Part shown: positions 28,851 to 37,416 of the stretch, piece by piece | Numbering within the stretch: the stretch's first letter is position 1 | Layout of the letters: each line of letters begins with the position of its first letter | Assembly: GCF_003012935.1 (NCBI RefSeq) | Contig: NZ_PUDR01000001.1 | Span: forward strand, 1-64,000 | Reading direction: 5' to 3' | Length of the DNA stretch: 64,000 bases | Source: Pannonibacter carbonis | GTDB taxonomy: Bacteria > Pseudomonadota > Alphaproteobacteria > Rhizobiales > Stappiaceae | Program-made: the position numbers and the translations under genes | The notes under the pieces: generated by a model | Database searches by the model: none | Seen by the model: only the letters and a program-made list of their open reading frames with translations | What the model was told of the DNA's origin: nothing

Positions 28851-30122
28851 TTATTTCATCGAGGCAACGAACGCATCCACCTCTTCCAGCGGAATGTAGG
28901 TGTCTTCCTTGGTGCCCTCGTTGGTGAAGCTCCACACCACGGCCGGTGCCGAGACGTCGCCGTTGGCATCGAACTTCACGTTGCCGGTCGCGCCCTGGTA
29001 GAGCACGGTGCCGCCGCCCGCGAGGATCTTGGTAGCCTCGGCAAAGCCGGCCGCATCCGCCGTCACCGGCGTGCCCTTGGGATCGGTCACCTTGGCGACC
29101 ATCGCCGCGATCTGCGGACCCTTGGCGTCCTTGCCGGCCGCCTGCATTGCCAGGAGCGCGATCATGGTCGCGTCATAGCTGTTGGCGAGACCGGGACCAT
29201 TCGGCTGGCCGCCGAACTTCTCGACATAGCGCTTCACGAAGGCTTCAGCGGAGGGCGTGCGCGGCGAGGACGTGTCGGTGCCCACTGCATTGCCGAGATA
29301 CTCGATTCCGACATTCTTGCGGAAGTCGTCAGACTTCAGCGAGTTGGCCATGATCATGTTCTGCGTGCCGCCGAGCGACAGCCATTCGCGCACGGCCGCC
29401 GTCCCTTCGGTCGGGTAAAGCGCCAGGTAGACCGCTTCCGGTTGGCCGGCCAGCGCCTCGGCCACTTCCGCCCGGTAGGAGGGCTGGGCATCGTTCAGCG
29501 CCACCTGCGCGGTCACCTTGATGCCGAGCTTCTCCAGATTGGCGGCAACGATCTTGCCGATGTCCTGGCCCCAGTCGTCGTTCTTGTAGAGGATGGCGAC
29601 CGACTTGTAGCCCTTGTCGCGTGCCACCATGGCGCCGACGGCCGCCTGCACGCGCGAGGTGGCGAAGGTGCGGAACCACAGGCCGTCGGTCTTGCCCTGT
29701 TCGGCGAGCTTGGTGAAGGCGGTCGAGGACGAGCAGCAGGACATCTGCATCACCTTGCCCGGCACGGTCACCGAGGTCAGGATCGGCATCGACACGCCGC
29801 TCGACACCGATCCGAGCAGCACCGGCACCTGGTCGATGTCGACGAGCGCCTTGGCCGCGTCCACACCCACCTTCGGGTCGGTCTGGTCGTCGCGCAGCAC
29901 CAGCTCGATGTTGCAGCCGGCAACGCCGCCGACCGAATTGACCTGCTCGACCACGAACTTCGCCGTCTCGGCGATGGGTCGGCCCCAGTCGACCGAGATC
30001 GGCAGCACCGCGCCGATCTTCTGCGTGCAGGACTGTGCCATGGCCTCTCCCGCCACGGGCACCAGCCCCAGTCCGAGAACCAGCCCAAGCCCGGCTGTGT
30101 GAACACTCCGCTTCATCGTCAT
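28851..30122 (-). CDS. Branched-chain amino acid-type ABC substrate-binding protein (LivJ-like)
   Basis: Periplasmic binding protein of 423 residues (Peripla_BP_6 type). Signal peptide about residues 1-29, cleaved after AMA. Family marks: IGAVLPISVDWG, VNSVGGVAG, LRDDQTDP and the SVSSGVSMP/CCSSS region that contacts the ligand carboxylate and amino group. Liv-type systems also carry amides, aromatic acids and urea. It is the last gene of the operon, 17 bases after the LivM-like permease. The upstream aldo/keto reductase and small CPDPxC protein suggest a ligand other than a simple amino acid. Confidence 0.92.
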   Translation of the reverse strand: MTMKRSVHTAGLGLVLGLGLVPVAGEAMAQSCTQKIGAVLPISVDWGRPIAETAKFVVEQVNSVGGVAGCNIELVLRDDQTDPKVGVDAAKALVDIDQVPVLLGSVSSGVSMPILTSVTVPGKVMQMSCCSSSTAFTKLAEQGKTDGLWFRTFATSRVQAAVGAMVARDKGYKSVAILYKNDDWGQDIGKIVAANLEKLGIKVTAQVALNDAQPSYRAEVAEALAGQPEAVYLALYPTEGTAAVREWLSLGGTQNMIMANSLKSDDFRKNVGIEYLGNAVGTDTSSPRTPSAEAFVKRYVEKFGGQPNGPGLANSYDATMIALLAMQAAGKDAKGPQIAAMVAKVTDPKGTPVTADAAGFAEATKILAGGGTVLYQGATGNVKFDANGDVSAPAVVWSFTNEGTKEDTYIPLEEVDAFVASMK

Positions 30123-30139: not shown

Positions 30140-31093
30140 TCAATGTCCGGGTTTTCCCGATTGCGATACGACCAGCCGTTCCGGAAACAGTCCCTGCGGA
30201 CGCCAGAGCAGCATGCCGACGATGACCAGACCGATCAGGATGAACTGGATCGAACCGGTATAGAGTTGCGCCTCGACGGGCGCGAAACGGGAGAGGGCCC
30301 AGCCGCTGGCGGTCCAGGCGCCCCAGATCAGGAAGGCCCCCGCAATGGCGCCCCGGTTGTTGCCCGCGCCGCCGACGATCAGCATGGCCCAGATCTGGAA
30401 GGTCAGCGTGGGGAGCACGTCCTGCGGGCTGACGAAGGCATAGAAAGTTCCATAGAGGCCGCCGGCCAGCCCCATGATCGCCGAGCCGGTAACAAAAGCG
30501 GTGAGACGGATCCGCGCCGGCATCTTGCCGAGCGAGCGGGCCGCGTCCTCGTCCTCGCGGATCGCCCGGAGCAGCCGGCCAAAGGGCGAGCCGGCCAGTC
30601 GCTGCAGCACTCCATAGACCAGCAGCAGAAGCACGAGCACGAAAGCCAGGAACACGGAGTTATAGTTCAAGCCATCGCCGAGCAGGTCCCGCATGGGGCG
30701 CTCGAAGCCCCGCAGGCCCTGCGCGCCGCCGGTCAGCCACAGCGCATTGCGCATGACATTTTCAAAGGCCACCGCCACGCCGAAAGTGGCAATCGCCAGA
30801 TAATCATGCCTGAGTTTCAGCGTCAGACGGCCGACGATCCAGGCCAGCAGCGCCGCCGCCGCGATGCCGCCGGCGAGCGCCACAAGATAGGGCAAGGCAA
30901 AGCCGCCCAGATGCTCGTCCTGCGGCTGGCCGCCGAGGATCAGCGTGACATAGGCCCCGGCCCCGAAGAAAGCCGCGACCCCGCCGTTGAAGAGGCCCGT
31001 GTTGCCCCACTGCAGGTTCAGCCCCAGCACGGCGATGGCCAGGATCGAGGCCAGCGTGGCGAAAAAGACCAGATAGGACAGGATCCCGATCAT
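30140..31093 (-). CDS. Branched-chain amino acid-type ABC permease (LivM-like)
   Basis: Permease of 317 residues with about nine hydrophobic helices. LivM marks are present: GLNLQWGNTGLFNGGVAAFFG near residue 22, ATFGVAVAFENV near 145 and a GGAGNNRGAIAG loop near residue 245. It overlaps the LivH-like gene by 4 bases. It forms the membrane channel together with LivH. Confidence 0.92.
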   Translation of the reverse strand: MIGILSYLVFFATLASILAIAVLGLNLQWGNTGLFNGGVAAFFGAGAYVTLILGGQPQDEHLGGFALPYLVALAGGIAAAALLAWIVGRLTLKLRHDYLAIATFGVAVAFENVMRNALWLTGGAQGLRGFERPMRDLLGDGLNYNSVFLAFVLVLLLLVYGVLQRLAGSPFGRLLRAIREDEDAARSLGKMPARIRLTAFVTGSAIMGLAGGLYGTFYAFVSPQDVLPTLTFQIWAMLIVGGAGNNRGAIAGAFLIWGAWTASGWALSRFAPVEAQLYTGSIQFILIGLVIVGMLLWRPQGLFPERLVVSQSGKPGH

Positions 31094-32004
31094 GCGCGCA
31101 CCTCGCCGAAGAGACCGTTCGGGCGCACCAGGAGCACCGCGAGAATGATGAGGAAGGGAACCGAGGGCGAATAGCCGGAGGGCAGGATCAGCAGCGCGAG
31201 GCTCGAGGCGATGCCGACGATCATGCCGCCCAGCGCCGCGCCGTAGATGCTGCCGATGCCGCCGACGATGGCCGCGGCAAAGATCGGCAGCACCAGGTCG
31301 CGGCCCATCACCGGCGACAGGTGGTTGGTGAGGCCGTAGAAGATACCGGCCGTAGCCGCCAGGCCGCCGCCGATCACCCAGATCAGCACGATCATCCGCT
31401 TCAGCGGAATGCCGTTGACCTGCGCCAGCGACGGGTTCTCCGCCACGGCGCGCAACGCATAGCCGAGCGTCGTGCGCGACAGCACAAGATGCAGCACCAG
31501 CATGATGACCAGCGTTGCCGCCAGCACGAACACCTGATCCGGCTTGATCAGCAGCAGCGGATCCCGGCTGACCACCACGGCAAAGGCGATGCCCTTGGAA
31601 TAGAGTTCCGTGTGCAGCCCGAAAATGAGCCCGATGACATTGCGCACGATCAGCGCGACACCGAAGGAGGCAAAGACCATCGACAGTTCGCCGCCCTTCT
31701 CCCGCACCCGGCGGAAGACGAACCGGTCGATCAGCACGGCGGAGGCGCCGGTGATCGCCATGGCAATGGCCATCGCCACGACAAGCGATCCGGTCAGGGT
31801 CAGCGGCGCGAGCTTTGCCCCCAGCGTGGCATTCACGCCCTGGAAGACCCGGTCGAACACCAGCGCCGCATAGGCGCCGATGGTCAGAAGCTCCGCATGG
31901 GCAAAATTGGCAAAGCGCAGCATGTGCATGACCATCGTCAGCCCGATTGCGCCCAGCGACAGGACCGCACCCACGAGAATGCCGTCGGCAAGCGATTGGA
32001 TCAT
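31090..32004 (-). CDS. Branched-chain amino acid-type ABC permease (LivH-like)
   Basis: Permease of 304 residues. The N-terminal GILVGAVLSLGAIGLTMV segment and FANFAHAELLTIGAYAA near residue 31 are typical of LivH. The conserved loop NPSLAQVNGI lies near residue 186, and GGIGSIYGAALGG in the last third. It overlaps both neighbours by 4 bases, which shows tight operon coupling. Confidence 0.92.
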   Translation of the reverse strand: MIQSLADGILVGAVLSLGAIGLTMVMHMLRFANFAHAELLTIGAYAALVFDRVFQGVNATLGAKLAPLTLTGSLVVAMAIAMAITGASAVLIDRFVFRRVREKGGELSMVFASFGVALIVRNVIGLIFGLHTELYSKGIAFAVVVSRDPLLLIKPDQVFVLAATLVIMLVLHLVLSRTTLGYALRAVAENPSLAQVNGIPLKRMIVLIWVIGGGLAATAGIFYGLTNHLSPVMGRDLVLPIFAAAIVGGIGSIYGAALGGMIVGIASSLALLILPSGYSPSVPFLIILAVLLVRPNGLFGEVRA

Positions 32005-32747
32005 GATGCCCTCAGCCTCTTGCCGCCCAGATAGATCTCGCCCACCACCGGATCGGCAATCAGCGCGGCGGCCGATCCGTCGATCTGGTTGCGCCCGTCG
32101 GCGAGGATGTAGCAGTGGTCGGCGATGCGCAGCGCCTGCTTCACGTTCTGCTCGACCAGCAGGATGGTGGTGCCCTGCGCCGTCAGTCCGCGCGCGAGCG
32201 CCAGGACTTCTTCCGCCGCCTTCGGCGACAGGCCGGCGGAGGGCTCGTCCATCAGGATCAGCGACGGCTTCACCGCCAGCGCCATGGCAACCGCCAGGAA
32301 CTGCCGCTGGCCGCCCGACAGCGCCCCGGCCCTTTCCTTCTGTTTGGCCGCCAGCGGCGGAAACCGGGTGAACAGCTCGTCGAGCCGCGCTCTGGCCTCG
32401 CCGCCCGCCTTGCGCAGGGCCAGGTCCAGGTTCTGGCGGATGGTCAGCGTGCGGAAGATGTTGTCGGTCTGCGGCACATAGGCGATGCCCTCGCCCGCCA
32501 TCCGGTCCGGTGCGATGCCGGTGATGGCCCGGCCTGCCAGCGTCACCGATCCCCCGCTCACCGGCACCAGCCCGGCAATCGCCTTGATCAGCGTCGACTT
32601 GCCGGCGCCGTTCGGCCCGATGATGACGGTCACGCTCTGCGGCGCGACCGTCACCGACACGTCCTTCAGGATCGGCAGGTCCGGGATATAGCCGGCCACC
32701 AGCCCGCGCACCTCAAGTCCCGCCCCGGTGGGTCCCGTCTCAGGCAT
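32001..32747 (-). CDS. Branched-chain amino acid-type ABC ATPase (LivF-like)
   Basis: ATPase of 248 residues. ATG 32747 was chosen over one eight codons upstream: GGGGAG lies 8 bases before it and it overlaps the LivG stop by 8 bases. Walker A GPNGAGKST, signature LSGGQRQFL and Walker B LILMDEPSAGL are intact. LivF-type length and a short C-terminus separate it from LivG. Confidence 0.92.
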   Translation of the reverse strand: MPETGPTGAGLEVRGLVAGYIPDLPILKDVSVTVAPQSVTVIIGPNGAGKSTLIKAIAGLVPVSGGSVTLAGRAITGIAPDRMAGEGIAYVPQTDNIFRTLTIRQNLDLALRKAGGEARARLDELFTRFPPLAAKQKERAGALSGGQRQFLAVAMALAVKPSLILMDEPSAGLSPKAAEEVLALARGLTAQGTTILLVEQNVKQALRIADHCYILADGRNQIDGSAAALIADPVVGEIYLGGKRLRAS

Positions 32748-33513
32748 CGGCCATGCTCCCCAGATAGGCATCCAGCAGCACCGGATTGGCCTGCGCCTCG
32801 GCGGCGCTGCCCTCGAAGACGACGCGGCCTTCGGCGAGCGCGATCACCGGGTCGCAGTGGCGCATGACGAAATCCATGTCGTGCTCGATGATGACGAAGG
32901 TCTTGCCCTGCCGGTTCAGCTCCTCGATCTTCTCGATCAGGATACCCGTCAGCGTCGGGTTGACGCCGGCCGCCGGCTCGTCGAGCAGGATGATCGCCGG
33001 ATCGCCCATCAAGACGCGCGCCAGCTCCAGCAGTTTCATCTGCCCGCCGGAGATCTTGCCGGCCGGATGGTCGGCCAGCTTGGCGAGGGTCACGAACTCC
33101 AGCACCGCCATGGCGCGCTCGCGGTTGCGCTTCTCCTCGGCGGCGACCCGCGCGGGGAACAGCAGCGGCCCGAGGAGGCTTTCCCCGGACTGCGCCACCG
33201 GCGCCATCATCACGTTTTCCAGCACGCTCATCCGGGCAAAGGGCCGCGGGATCTGGAATGTCCGCCCCAGCCCCTTGCGGAACAGCGCATCCGGCGCAAG
33301 TCCGGTCACGTCGGCCCCCTTCAGGGTGACGCGGCCGGAACTCGGCCGCAGCATGCCGGTGAGCAGGTTGAACAGCGTCGACTTGCCGGCGCCGTTCGGG
33401 CCGATCAGGCCGGTGATGGTGCCGGCGCGGATGTCCAGCGACACGTCGTCGACGGCCCGGAAGCCGTTGAAGTCGCGCGACAGGCCTCGGGTCGACAGCA
33501 GGATCTCAGCCAT
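32740..33513 (-). CDS. Branched-chain amino acid-type ABC ATPase (LivG-like)
   Basis: ATPase of 257 residues. The start at 33513 overlaps the aldo/keto reductase stop by 8 bases and has GAGG upstream. Walker A GPNGAGKST, signature ISGGQMKLL and Walker B IILLDEPAAGVNP are present. The long insertion before the signature and the C-terminal EGSAAEAQANPVLLDAYLG are typical of LivG. Confidence 0.92.
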   Translation of the reverse strand: MAEILLSTRGLSRDFNGFRAVDDVSLDIRAGTITGLIGPNGAGKSTLFNLLTGMLRPSSGRVTLKGADVTGLAPDALFRKGLGRTFQIPRPFARMSVLENVMMAPVAQSGESLLGPLLFPARVAAEEKRNRERAMAVLEFVTLAKLADHPAGKISGGQMKLLELARVLMGDPAIILLDEPAAGVNPTLTGILIEKIEELNRQGKTFVIIEHDMDFVMRHCDPVIALAEGRVVFEGSAAEAQANPVLLDAYLGSMADA

Positions 33514-34594
33514 GGCTCGCCGCCTCGAGAACCTGATCATCCGGCCGGGTGTTGAGGTTGTATTTCATGATGCGGCCGTGCCGGCTGGTCCGGTCGCCTT
33601 CAAGGCCGTAGACGGGACCGCTCGGGCCCTTCGCCTGCGCAATCACGGCGGCAATCCGCGCCCGGTCGGCCTCATCCAGCGTCAGGCGGAACACCTCCAG
33701 CGTCTTCGGCAGATGCCGGGCGTAGCGTGCGCCGACGATGGCGGCGGCGACCTGCGGCTGGTCCAGCACCCAGCGCGTTGCCACGCTCGACAGCGACACG
33801 CCGTGCCGGTCGCCGACGGCCTTCAGCGTTTCCAGCAGCGTCTGGAACAGGTCCCAGGAGCCGAACTCGTCGATGATCAGCCGGTACTTCACCAGCGACC
33901 GGTTGTCGAAGGCAAAGCCCGGATCGGGCTGGCCCAGCCAGGCCTCCGTCAGGAAGCCGCCGGCCAGGGTGCCGTAGCACAGCAACTGCATGTCCTGCGC
34001 CCTCGCCCAGGAGGCGAGGCCTGTGGCCGGGCGCCGGTCGAGGATCGAATACTGCACCTGCGCCGAGACCACGTCGAAGCCCGCATCCGTAAAGCGAGCC
34101 ATCTGCATCTCGTTCCAGTTGGTCGTGCCGAGACTGCCGATCTTGCCCTTCTCCTGGCAGCGCTTCAGCACCTCGAAGGCAGAGACTGCATCGCCGATGC
34201 TGAGATCCCACCAGAAGAACTGCACCAGATGCAGCCGGTCGATCTGCAGCCGCTTCAGCGACCGGTCGACAATGGCTTCCACCTCGTCGGGGCGGATGTC
34301 GGCCAGCCGCGACAGGTCCGGCACCAGCTTGGTGTGCACGACCGCGCGCTCGGTCACCTCGGCGCCCCGGCGCTTGCGCACATCCTCAATGAAGCTGCCG
34401 ATCATCTCCTCCACGCCGGTGTAGATGTCGGCGCAGTCAAAGGTCGTGATGCCCGCATCGAGGAAGGCTTCCATGTCGGCGATCGCGGCCTCGCGCTCGA
34501 CCGAGCCATGGTCGCCGGCCAGCTGCCAGCCGCCCTTGATGACGCGGGAAATCCTGTGGCCGGGACGCAGGTCCGCGGTTTCGACTTGGGTCAT
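33506..34594 (-). CDS. Aldo/keto reductase
   Basis: A 362-residue TIM-barrel NADPH oxidoreductase. The catalytic tyrosine is in DCADIYTG near residue 58 and the lysine in HTKLVP near residue 89. The TNWNEMQM, YGTLAGGFL and C-terminal IVGARY segments fit the family. It overlaps the small upstream gene by 4 bases and LivG by 8, so it is embedded in the transporter operon. It is clearly related to the N-terminal part of the RidA fusion at 35920-37416 (shared WLGQP, WVLDQ/WVLEQ and VGAR/IGAR segments). Substrate unknown. Confidence 0.88.
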   Translation of the reverse strand: MTQVETADLRPGHRISRVIKGGWQLAGDHGSVEREAAIADMEAFLDAGITTFDCADIYTGVEEMIGSFIEDVRKRRGAEVTERAVVHTKLVPDLSRLADIRPDEVEAIVDRSLKRLQIDRLHLVQFFWWDLSIGDAVSAFEVLKRCQEKGKIGSLGTTNWNEMQMARFTDAGFDVVSAQVQYSILDRRPATGLASWARAQDMQLLCYGTLAGGFLTEAWLGQPDPGFAFDNRSLVKYRLIIDEFGSWDLFQTLLETLKAVGDRHGVSLSSVATRWVLDQPQVAAAIVGARYARHLPKTLEVFRLTLDEADRARIAAVIAQAKGPSGPVYGLEGDRTSRHGRIMKYNLNTRPDDQVLEAASHG

Positions 34595-35046
34595 TCGTCA
34601 GGGCCTCCCTCGGCCTTCTTCCAGTAAGGGGTCTCGCGCGCCTCCGGCAGGCCGGTGGTCTCGCTGTGGCTGAACCGGCGCTTGCCCGTCCGGGTGATGC
34701 GGAAACGGCCGCCGCAATGGGGATCCGGACAAGCCACTTCCGCGTCCGTGGACATCCAGTCATACGGCGAGGTCTCGCGCTGCTTGGCCGGCAACAGCGG
34801 CAGCACGGCGGCGAGCGCATACATCGACACGCGCTGCCCGGGCTCGAACACCAGCGCCTCGCCCTCGACGCGAAAACTCTCGCCCTCGATGTGGCGACAG
34901 ACCGGCGTGCGGCCGTCAAGGACCGTCTCGACCTTCAGGTCATAGAGCCAGAAGCCGTCGTCGGCTGCCGGCCGAGCAGGTTCGGCTCCTGCGCTCCCGC
35001 CGTTGCGCTCTGTACCCCCAACTGCCCCTGCCTTGTTGTCGGCCAC
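34591..35046 (-). CDS. Small conserved protein with CPDPxC motif (TIGR04076-like)
   Basis: A 151-residue protein. After a disordered Gly/Ala-rich start, it has the segments YDLKVETV, SMYALAAVLPLLPAKQRET, DWMSTDAEVACPDPHC and FRITRTGKRRFSH. This pattern recalls the uncharacterised TIGR04076 family from memory, which is tentative. The cysteine pair in CPDPHC could bind a metal or cofactor. First gene of the Liv operon, coupled by 4-base overlap to the aldo/keto reductase, which argues for joint action. No function is assigned. Confidence 0.7.
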   Translation of the reverse strand: MADNKAGAVGGTERNGGSAGAEPARPAADDGFWLYDLKVETVLDGRTPVCRHIEGESFRVEGEALVFEPGQRVSMYALAAVLPLLPAKQRETSPYDWMSTDAEVACPDPHCGGRFRITRTGKRRFSHSETTGLPEARETPYWKKAEGGPDE

Positions 35047-35075: not shown

Positions 35076-35121
35076 ATATCTGTGATATTTGATCTTAGGT
35101 ATGGGATCTTGAGATTGTCAA
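35076..35121 (-). promoter_or_regulatory. Promoter of the minus-strand Liv operon with overlapping palindrome
   Basis: On the minus strand TTGACA (35116-35121) is followed after 18 bases by TAAGAT (35092-35097). A palindrome ATATC-TGT-GATAT (35076-35088) covers the expected transcription start, a repressor position. A direct repeat GATCTT at 35091 and 35105 overlaps the promoter core. The divergent FCD-GntR gene at 35222 is the likely binder. Confidence 0.55.
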
Positions 35122-35221
35122 TCGACCGCGCATGGTTAAACTTCAGGCAGGTCAGCCAGTGGCTGTAGCGGTCCTGAACCGAGACAAACCGCAGCCGGGC
35201 GAGACATTCGGGGAGCAGCAC

Positions 35222-35875
35222 ATGAGCGCACCGCGCATCGCGAGGATCGACCAGTCAAAACTCAGGGAGAACGTCTATTTCGCGCTGCGCGACGCCTTTA
35301 CACGCGGCGAGTTCGCCCCCGGCGACACGGTCAGCCTGCGTGATCTGGCCGAACAGCTCGGCACCTCGATGACCCCGGTGCGCGAGGCCGTCCGCCGTCT
35401 CGTGGCCGAGGGCGCGCTCATCGACACGCCAAGCCGCACTCTGCAGGTGCCCGCCTTTGATGCACGCCGCATGCAGGATCTGAAGCAGGCGCGGCTGGCG
35501 CTCGAGGCTCTCGTGCTCGATCTCGCCATGGACCGCATGACGCCGGAGATCATCGCGGCGATGGAGGCGGTCCTGACCACGCACTCGGACCCCGGGATCA
35601 CCGGCCCCGACTTGCAGCAGAATTACGACTTCCACTTCACGCTCTACCGCGCCAGCGAGTCCGAGGTGCTGCTGCCGCTCGTCGAAGCGCTCTGGCTGCA
35701 GTACGGCGCCTATCTCAACCTCATCATCAAGCATGAGGAAGCCTTGCGCATGCCGGAGCACAAGCACCACCAGGAGATCATCGCCGCCCTGAAGGCGGGC
35801 GACCGGGCCGCCGCCCATGCCGCGCTTGCCAATGACATCGAGCGCAGCTTCCGCGTGCTGGTGCCGACAGCCTGA
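35222..35875 (+). CDS. GntR family transcriptional regulator (FCD domain)
   Basis: A 217-residue FadR-subfamily regulator. ATG 35222 has GGGGAG at good spacing; the longer upstream frame lacks support. The winged helix contains AEQLGTSMTPVREAVRRL near residues 44-61, followed by the helical FCD domain with the metal/ligand residues D-x-x-x-H (NYDFHFTLY) near residue 137 and a late His cluster (HKHHQEI) near 180. It stands between the minus-strand Liv operon and the AKR-RidA fusion and probably controls both. Confidence 0.9.
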   Translation: MSAPRIARIDQSKLRENVYFALRDAFTRGEFAPGDTVSLRDLAEQLGTSMTPVREAVRRLVAEGALIDTPSRTLQVPAFDARRMQDLKQARLALEALVLDLAMDRMTPEIIAAMEAVLTTHSDPGITGPDLQQNYDFHFTLYRASESEVLLPLVEALWLQYGAYLNLIIKHEEALRMPEHKHHQEIIAALKAGDRAAAHAALANDIERSFRVLVPTA

Positions 35876-35919: not shown

Positions 35920-37416
35920 ATGACCCGTCACCCGGCTTCGCCGCTCACGCCCGCTCGTCCCGACCGTTTCCCGCTGGCTCCGGGGCTGGAGATCAGCCGC
36001 GCCCTCACGGGCCTGTGGCAGGTGGCCGACATCGAACGCAAGTCCGGCCCGATCGACCCTGATCTTGGCGCGGACTGGCTGGAGGCCTATGTCCGCGACG
36101 GCTTCACCACCTTCGACATGGCCGACCATTACGGCACCTCCGAGCTGATCACCGGCCGCCTGCTGTCGCGCTTTGCAAACGGCAGCGCCGACCGGCCGCT
36201 TGCCTTCACCAAATGGTGCCCCGAACCCGGCCCGATGACCGCCGACGTGGTGCGCGCGGGCGTCGAGGAGCGGCTGGCGCGCCTCGGCACCGACTGCATC
36301 GACCTGCTGCAGTTCCATTGGTGGAGCTTCGAGCATCCGGGCTGGCTCGACGCCCTGCACGAGCTGACGCGCCTGCGGGCCGAGGGACTGATCCGCGAGA
36401 TCGGCGTCACCAATTTCGATGCCGCCCACCTGCATCTGGCACTGGCCGACGGCATTCCGCTCGCCACCAACCAGGTCTCCTTCTCGCTGGTGGACCGGCG
36501 CGCGGCGGGCCAGCTGGCCGAGGTCTGCAGCGCCCACGGCGTGCATCTTCTGGCCTATGGCACGCTCTGCGGCGGCTTCCTGTCCGGCCGCTGGCTCGGC
36601 CAGCCGGAGCCGCACGACATCGAGGACTGGAGCAAGATGAAGTACAAGCGCTTCATCGACACCATCGGTGGCTGGACTGCCTTCCAGGGCATCCTTGCGG
36701 CTGCCGGCGCCATCGCCACGAAGCACGGCGTCTCGATTTCCAACGTCGCCACCCGCTGGGTCCTCGAGCAGACGGCAGTCGCCGGCGTCATCATCGGCGC
36801 ACGCCTCGGCGAGGCCATGCACACCGCCGACAATCTCAAGCTCTTCGGCTTCAGGCTGGACGCGGAGGACCACGCTCGTCTCGATGCGGCCTTTGCCGCG
36901 ACACAGCCCGTGCCGGGCGACTGCGGCGATGAATACCGCAAGCCCCCCTTCCTCACCGCCTCGGGGGATCTCAGCCATCACCTCAGCGAGATGCCGCGCG
37001 CCAGCACCACCGAACTGACGCCGCACCGCCCCGGCGGCCTGCGCGTGCTGACCGGCTCGGAGTGGGAGGACATCGCCGGCTATTGCCGCGCCCAGCGCAT
37101 CGGCGACCGCATCCTCGTCTCCGGCACCACGGCCACGGCCGGCGCCAGCCGCCCCGTCGCCCCGCAGGATGCCGCCGCCCAGACCACCTATATCCTCGAC
37201 AAGATCCAGTCGGCCCTGACCGCGCTCGGCGCCAGCGCCGAGGACGTGGTCCGCACCCGCGTCTATCTCACTGACCCGGAGGATGCCTTGCCGGTGTCGC
37301 GGGCCCATGGCCGCGTCTTCGGCGAGATCAAGCCCGCCAACACCCTCCTCGCCGTCGCCCGCCTGATCGGCGACTACAAGGTGGAAATCGAGGCCGAGGC
37401 GATCATCCGGCCGTAA
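35920..37416 (+). CDS. Aldo/keto reductase fused to a RidA-like domain
   Basis: A 498-residue two-domain protein. Residues 1 to about 345 form an aldo/keto reductase barrel (catalytic Tyr in MADHYG near residue 69, Lys in AFTKW near 97, IIGARLG near the domain end). Residues about 365-498 are a complete RidA/YjgF domain (ILVSGTTAT, VVRTRVYLTDPED, VARLIGDYKVEIEAEAI). In RidA enamine/imine deaminases the motif PAR supplies the carboxylate-binding arginine; here it reads PAN (Asn474), so classic deaminase activity is doubtful. It follows the GntR gene after 44 bases. The N-terminal half is a paralogue of the reductase in the divergent operon. Confidence 0.9.
   Translation: MTRHPASPLTPARPDRFPLAPGLEISRALTGLWQVADIERKSGPIDPDLGADWLEAYVRDGFTTFDMADHYGTSELITGRLLSRFANGSADRPLAFTKWCPEPGPMTADVVRAGVEERLARLGTDCIDLLQFHWWSFEHPGWLDALHELTRLRAEGLIREIGVTNFDAAHLHLALADGIPLATNQVSFSLVDRRAAGQLAEVCSAHGVHLLAYGTLCGGFLSGRWLGQPEPHDIEDWSKMKYKRFIDTIGGWTAFQGILAAAGAIATKHGVSISNVATRWVLEQTAVAGVIIGARLGEAMHTADNLKLFGFRLDAEDHARLDAAFAATQPVPGDCGDEYRKPPFLTASGDLSHHLSEMPRASTTELTPHRPGGLRVLTGSEWEDIAGYCRAQRIGDRILVSGTTATAGASRPVAPQDAAAQTTYILDKIQSALTALGASAEDVVRTRVYLTDPEDALPVSRAHGRVFGEIKPANTLLAVARLIGDYKVEIEAEAIIRP

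Follow-up and report, generated by a model that had tools for sequence, protein, structure and literature searches.

Judged by sequence comparison, the aldo/keto reductase (AKR)–Rid fusion of Pannonibacter carbonis belongs to a transport/redox cassette of nine genes that is conserved in alphaproteobacteria. It lies in the window, by which we mean the whole stretch of 64,000 nucleotides that was analysed. That the fusion belongs to such a cassette is the main point beyond an earlier note on this DNA.

Table 1. Features of the fusion gene and its cassette in the window; counts of loci refer to the 88 fusion loci
Feature	Position	Strand	Evidence
AKR–Rid fusion gene, 498 aa	35920..37416	+	ATG start, no internal stop; 120 distinct full-length homologues
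Aldo_ket_red domain, residues 31–324	36010..36891	+	Pfam PF00248, E 7.8e-58, model 5–289 of 291
AKR tetrad Asp66, Tyr71, Lys98, His133	inside Aldo_ket_red domain	+	invariant, 120/120
C-terminal AKR cap GDCGDEYRKPPFLTASGDLSHHL, residues 331–356	36910..36987	+	91% mean pairwise identity
Variable linker, residues 357–378	36988..37053	+	44% mean identity
Rid domain (Ribonuc_L-PSP), residues 383–495	37066..37404	+	Pfam PF01042, E 7e-21, model 6–120 of 121
Asn474 codon, RidA Arg105 position	37339..37341	+	alignment with RidA
GntR/FCD regulator	35132..35875 (true start probably 35222)	+	Pfam GntR and FCD; 58/88 loci
Divergent promoter-like pair, gap between TIGR04076 and GntR genes	35092..35142		2 found, 0.1 expected; consensus match only
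TIGR04076 family protein	34591..35046	-	NCBIfam E 3.1e-15; 75/88 loci
AKR2, second aldo/keto reductase	33506..34594	-	38% identical to the fusion's AKR; 72/88 loci
LivG-type ABC ATPase	32740..33540	-	domain searches; 76/88 loci
LivF-type ABC ATPase	32001..32771	-	76/88 loci
LivH-type permease	31090..32004	-	76/88 loci; L038 counterpart annotated as branched-chain amino acid permease
LivM-type permease	30140..31093	-	78/88 loci
Periplasmic solute-binding protein, Leu/Ile/Val-binding-protein type	28851..30122	-	PDB best hit 3td9, E 8.8e-13; 72/88 loci

Architecture and conservation of the fusion

The domain searches agree with the earlier note that a full-length AKR and a complete RidA-like domain share one chain, as both Pfam models are matched over nearly their full length. 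The N-terminal part has the full-length barrel domain and the Asp-Tyr-Lys-His tetrad of the AKR superfamily. The C-terminal part is a complete domain of the Rid (YjgF/YER057c/UK114) family, with a match to the structure 3i7t at E 1.3e-18. Residues 472–474 read Pro-Ala-Asn (PAN), and the alignment places Asn474 at the site of RidA Arg105, as had been proposed, and Glu489 at the site of RidA Glu120, with an identical spacing of 15 residues. The RidA pocket residues Tyr388, Ser401, Gly402 and Glu489 are present. Structural modelling, which had been recommended as a check, gave an AlphaFold monomer of high confidence from 54 aligned homologues (mean pLDDT 89.6, pTM 0.91). A fold search with the full model returned AKR11 and related AKR structures with VIA Z values of about 28–30; the list contains AKR matches only, as the larger domain fills it. 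With AKR11-like enzymes (4xk2, 3n2t AKR11B4, 1pyf, E. coli Tas) the fusion shares the fold, at Z of about 29–30, and the full tetrad. In contrast to the solved AKRs, to which it is only about 25–28% identical, the fusion's AKR has its own conserved cap with an insert and is followed by a C-terminal Rid domain.

The same architecture, which the earlier note had suggested looking for in other genomes, is present in 33 of the 297 genomes that were sampled from the order, the own genome counted, and in 120 distinct full-length copies, of which the identified ones are all from Alphaproteobacteria. Matches to the fusion occur in at least 80 named contigs, and among the matches listed the names are nearly all alphaproteobacterial. 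Plasmids of Rhizobium, Pannonibacter, Thioclava, Microvirga and others carry it, and Pannonibacter sp. SL95 has a copy that is 99% identical. Among 299 genomes sampled across the phylum, those Rid matches in long fused frames that were strongest all fall within the class of Pannonibacter. A copy filed under 'Mycobacterium sp. KBS0706' groups near Inquilinus in the trees, so this label is probably wrong. Recovery in this number of genomes and sequences, with Asn474 in 120/120 copies, means that the join is due neither to chance nor to sequencing. The sequencing-derived fusion that the earlier note had held against its own proposal is thus ruled out by independent homologues. That the gene is a sequencing or assembly artefact or is decaying has a negligible probability in view of the independent assemblies and the distinct sequences, which come from several orders and from chromosomes as well as plasmids.

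Besides Asn474, the AKR tetrad and Gly402 are invariant in all full-length copies. Ser401 and Tyr/Phe388 are each found in 118/120, and Glu489 in 117/117 of the copies aligned there. Mean pairwise identity is 69.9% for the AKR core and 68.5% for the Rid domain. Since the two domains are about equally conserved while the linker drifts, both are under selection. The most conserved segment is the AKR cap, above either catalytic domain; it follows the ground plan of the AKR2 C-terminus with an insert of 8 residues. The AKR parts of the fusions form one clade in the trees and the Rid parts form one clade, which is consistent with one fusion event having given rise to the AKR–Rid proteins. One row inside the fusion Rid clade (L129) is itself a piece of a fusion-length frame.

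The missing arginine

The absence of the RidA arginine extends beyond the fusion. None of 27 tabulated non-fused Rid relatives has Arg at this site (9 Ala, 7 Thr, 3 Ser, 3 Gly, 2 Asn, 2 Cys, 1 Met), and all 27 keep the Glu at the RidA Glu120 position. The nearest solved relative, 3i7t (M. tuberculosis Rv2704), has Thr at the Arg site. The genome's own archetypal RidA (L008), in contrast, has Arg. The idea that Arg was lost specially in the fusion therefore fails, and a recent loss is ruled out because the relatives lack Arg as well. From these comparisons, Asn is a property of this Rid lineage and not damage.

RidA and Rid1–3 are recognised by Arg at position 105, where the fusion has Asn. In Niehaus et al. 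2015 (PMC4433059), Rid4–7 are described as keeping the Glu and lacking the Arg, with Trp in its place in Rid4 and Rid7 and a variable residue, next to the kept Glu and Tyr/Phe, in Rid5 and Rid6; the functions of Rid4–7 are there called completely unknown. As the fusion's Rid domain keeps Glu, lacks Arg and has no Trp at the site, it fits Rid5/6 and not RidA, and by these residues it is an Arg-less, Rid5/6-like type. It resembles the Arg-less Rids, of which 3i7t is the nearest solved one, in the kept Glu and Tyr/Phe, the variable, non-Trp Arg position and the common SGSxxE..GY(S/C)RA motif. It differs from them in its place behind an AKR and in its strict Asn.

The conserved cassette

Neighbours were counted at 88 fusion loci, with loci cut at contig ends included. 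In the window, the GntR gene precedes the fusion on the plus strand, with 45 bp between the two, and the operon of the TIGR04076, AKR2, Liv and solute-binding-protein genes is divergent from GntR and the fusion. The fusion loci have two gene orders, that of the window and one with the fusion directly after LivM (e.g. L040, L041, L045). The cassette is also found on plasmids of two orders. An AKR2-type match is present in 30 of the 33 order-sample genomes that bear the fusion. The fusion is absent from two of four other sampled Pannonibacter genomes, which have no long match across the cassette, and in P. phragmitetus 31801 the cassette is on a plasmid; the cassette is thus accessory. Beyond it, the fusion loci have no common extra neighbours, the most widespread cluster being found at 7 of the 88. 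For the ligand of the binding protein, the sequence gave generic Leu/Ile/Val-type hits only. A terminator scan found none.

On a plasmid of Antarctobacter (L044), the fusion is not part of the cassette; its neighbours there are polyamine/amino acid ABC transporters, a glutamine-synthetase-like gene, an N-formylglutamate amidohydrolase and an isochorismatase-family hydrolase. Two cassettes of Rhodobacterales MAGs have the fusion together with a free Asn-type Rid (L111:8980-9381, L095:4977-5375) and a small gene between the two (L111:9378-9809).

Cassettes without the fusion

Searches with AKR2 gave cassettes that lack the fusion. At L158, L163, L164, L165, L167 and L168, a DAO-family FAD oxidase gene follows LivM, which is the slot of the fusion in the second arrangement. 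The best NCBIfam hit of the L165 oxidase is the L-pipecolate oxidase AmaA, at E 5.7e-91 and below the model's own cut-off. The cassettes L158, L165, L167 and L168 share the transporter, AKR2, TIGR04076 and GntR genes with the fusion cassettes; they differ in that the L-pipecolate-oxidase-like FAD oxidase replaces the fusion and in often having extra DUF3830 and SnoaL-like genes. At L166 (with an Asp/Glu racemase), L173 and L176, a DAO gene lies near the binding protein, while L156 has an aspartate-dehydrogenase-like gene and L169 a hydantoinase B neighbour. Counting non-identical cassettes, a DAO gene is nearby in 11 of 20 without the fusion versus 2 of 85 with it (Fisher p 4e-8), a value that overstates independence because the loci with a DAO gene are in part related to one another, with about half coming from Mesorhizobium/Rhizobium-like genomes. 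The 20 include a contig fragment (L205) from a genome that has the fusion on another contig. A few fusion loci additionally carry a DAO or Asp-dehydrogenase-like gene.

Four fusion-less cassettes (L181, L183, L186, L187) contain a free Rid whose residue at the Arg site is Asn, and in two of them it adjoins a DAO gene. The free Rids of the fusion-less cassettes form a clade separate from the fusion's Rid, which argues for parallel recruitment and not for an unfused ancestor; an origin of the fusion by joining of such a free Rid is therefore not supported. A third AKR found in some of the fusion-less cassettes (L181:5255-6292, L183:9770-10792, L186:6903-7916, L187:9290-10303, L182:5567-6601) has Arg for the tetrad Lys and Gln for the His. 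With its degenerate tetrad and its own clade, this AKR beside the free Rid is not supported as the source of the fusion's AKR.

In AKR2 of the window, Phe replaces the catalytic His of AKRs (LVQFFWW); members of the AKR2 family have His, Phe, Tyr or Cys at this position. Given this variability, some AKR2s may not be ordinary reductases. AKR2 and TIGR04076 genes are paired far beyond the cassette (L157, L169, L170, L174), haloarchaea included, in the company of gamma-glutamyltransferase in haloarchaea and of hydantoinase B. A molybdopterin oxidoreductase of about 1130 residues, fused to NAD- and 2Fe-2S-binding domains, adjoins AKR2 cassettes at L161:5338-8727, L162:9545-12931 and L156:1487-5002. 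No informative literature on TIGR04076 was found among the papers searched.

Discussion

The architecture, its conservation, the linkage to the cassette and the exchange pattern with DAO can be read directly from the sequences. What the cassette does is a matter of graded likelihood. We tentatively favour, at not quite an even chance, a self-contained cassette that takes up and transforms a compound resembling an amine or amino acid; the fusion would be its dedicated enzyme, and the Rid cleft would hold an intermediate. The Liv-type transporter and its binding protein would import this nitrogen-bearing compound. The step of the AKR domain, and its redox direction with it, we infer: it would be NAD(P)(H)-dependent and act on an intermediate with a C=O or C=N bond. 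The Rid part presumably trimerises like other Rids and would so form inter-subunit clefts, in which the intermediate may be bound and hydrolysed, tautomerised or handed over. Channelling of the intermediate within the fusion is possible. Asn474 would stand in for the carboxylate-binding Arg, and because of this replacement the ligand is probably neutral or without an alpha-carboxylate. Together, the AKR chemistry and the Rid cleft would do the job for which the sister cassettes use a flavin oxidase, at times along with a free Rid.

The substrate is probably a nitrogen compound. Its assignment to amines or imines comes from the fusion-less cassettes, which have an L-pipecolate-oxidase-related DAO, and some of them a free Asn-type Rid, instead. 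Liv-type transporters also carry non-amine compounds, and this counts against the amine reading. RidA/Rid3 genes cluster with FAD amine oxidases, according to Niehaus et al. 2015 (PMC4433059). By analogy, an AKR that is part of a fusion is able to reduce a C=N bond: in the P450–AKR fusion REPI/STORR of opium poppy, the AKR domain reduces the iminium 1,2-dehydroreticuline (PMC10813097). The likeness lies in an AKR that is fused to the provider of a C=N intermediate. The partner there is a cytochrome P450 and the organism a plant, so that this is an analogy only, with no homology of the system.

The chief rival, which we consider somewhat unlikely, is that the Rid domain is non-catalytic and serves to hold the AKR in a trimer, to sense a ligand allosterically, or both, with all chemistry done by the AKR. 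Trimerisation of Rid domains (PMC4433059, PMC6742747) and the inactivity on imines of S. enterica Rid7, the Arg-less Rid tested to date (PMC4433059), would suit such a role. The retention of Tyr/Phe388, Ser401, Gly402, Glu489 and Asn474 in nearly all of the 120 copies, however, exceeds the needs of a scaffold, and the fusion-less cassettes contain free Asn-type Rids. It is highly improbable that the Rid domain works as a normal enamine/imine deaminase in spite of Asn474. This reading could appeal to the retained Glu489, Ser401 and Tyr388 and to the varied imines accepted by other Rids (PMC5619798), but the counterpart of Arg105, reported in PMC4433059 and PMC5619798 as the determinant of deaminase activity, is missing in all copies. 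From the absence of this Arg, we predict that the fusion's Rid lacks standard imine hydrolysis; neither of the two papers reports imine hydrolysis by an Arg-less Rid. Unlikely, too, is a new step of the Arg-less Asn Rid on a carboxylate-free imine or enamine, carried out with the AKR, so that the two together would replace a flavin amine oxidase in a catabolic cassette that is unaltered in other respects.

It is quite unlikely that the cassette is unrelated to amines and serves to process a carbonyl or sugar-like compound. The structurally nearest AKR folds are glycerol, aldehyde and keto reductases and the neighbours outside the cassette vary, both of which would agree with such a substrate. 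Against it stand the slot shared with DAO oxidases, the aspartate-dehydrogenase-like, Asp/Glu/hydantoin racemase and hydantoinase B genes that adjoin AKR2, and the amino-acid-type transporter with its binding protein.

Both kinds of domain and Arg-less Rids are already known. A literature search, outside which most subscription journals lie, found no description of the AKR–Rid architecture or of the cassette, and annotated public records name the fusion protein 'aldo/keto reductase' only. The Rid fusions mentioned in the available part of Niehaus 2015 (PMC4433059) are tandem Rids only. Here an Arg-less Rid shares a chain with a redox enzyme and is firmly linked to a nine-gene cassette that brings along a transporter, a binding protein and a regulator. 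Ligand screening with the binding protein and a knock-out could therefore reveal the substrate, and with it a function of this Rid class. The conserved system thus makes the function of Arg-less Rids testable and is not a strange lone mutation, and the exchange with an L-pipecolate-oxidase-like gene provides a first guess at the chemistry. If the step of the Asn-type Rid together with the AKR is real, it would be the first defined function of the Rid4–7 type and would represent an undescribed class of two-domain enzymes.
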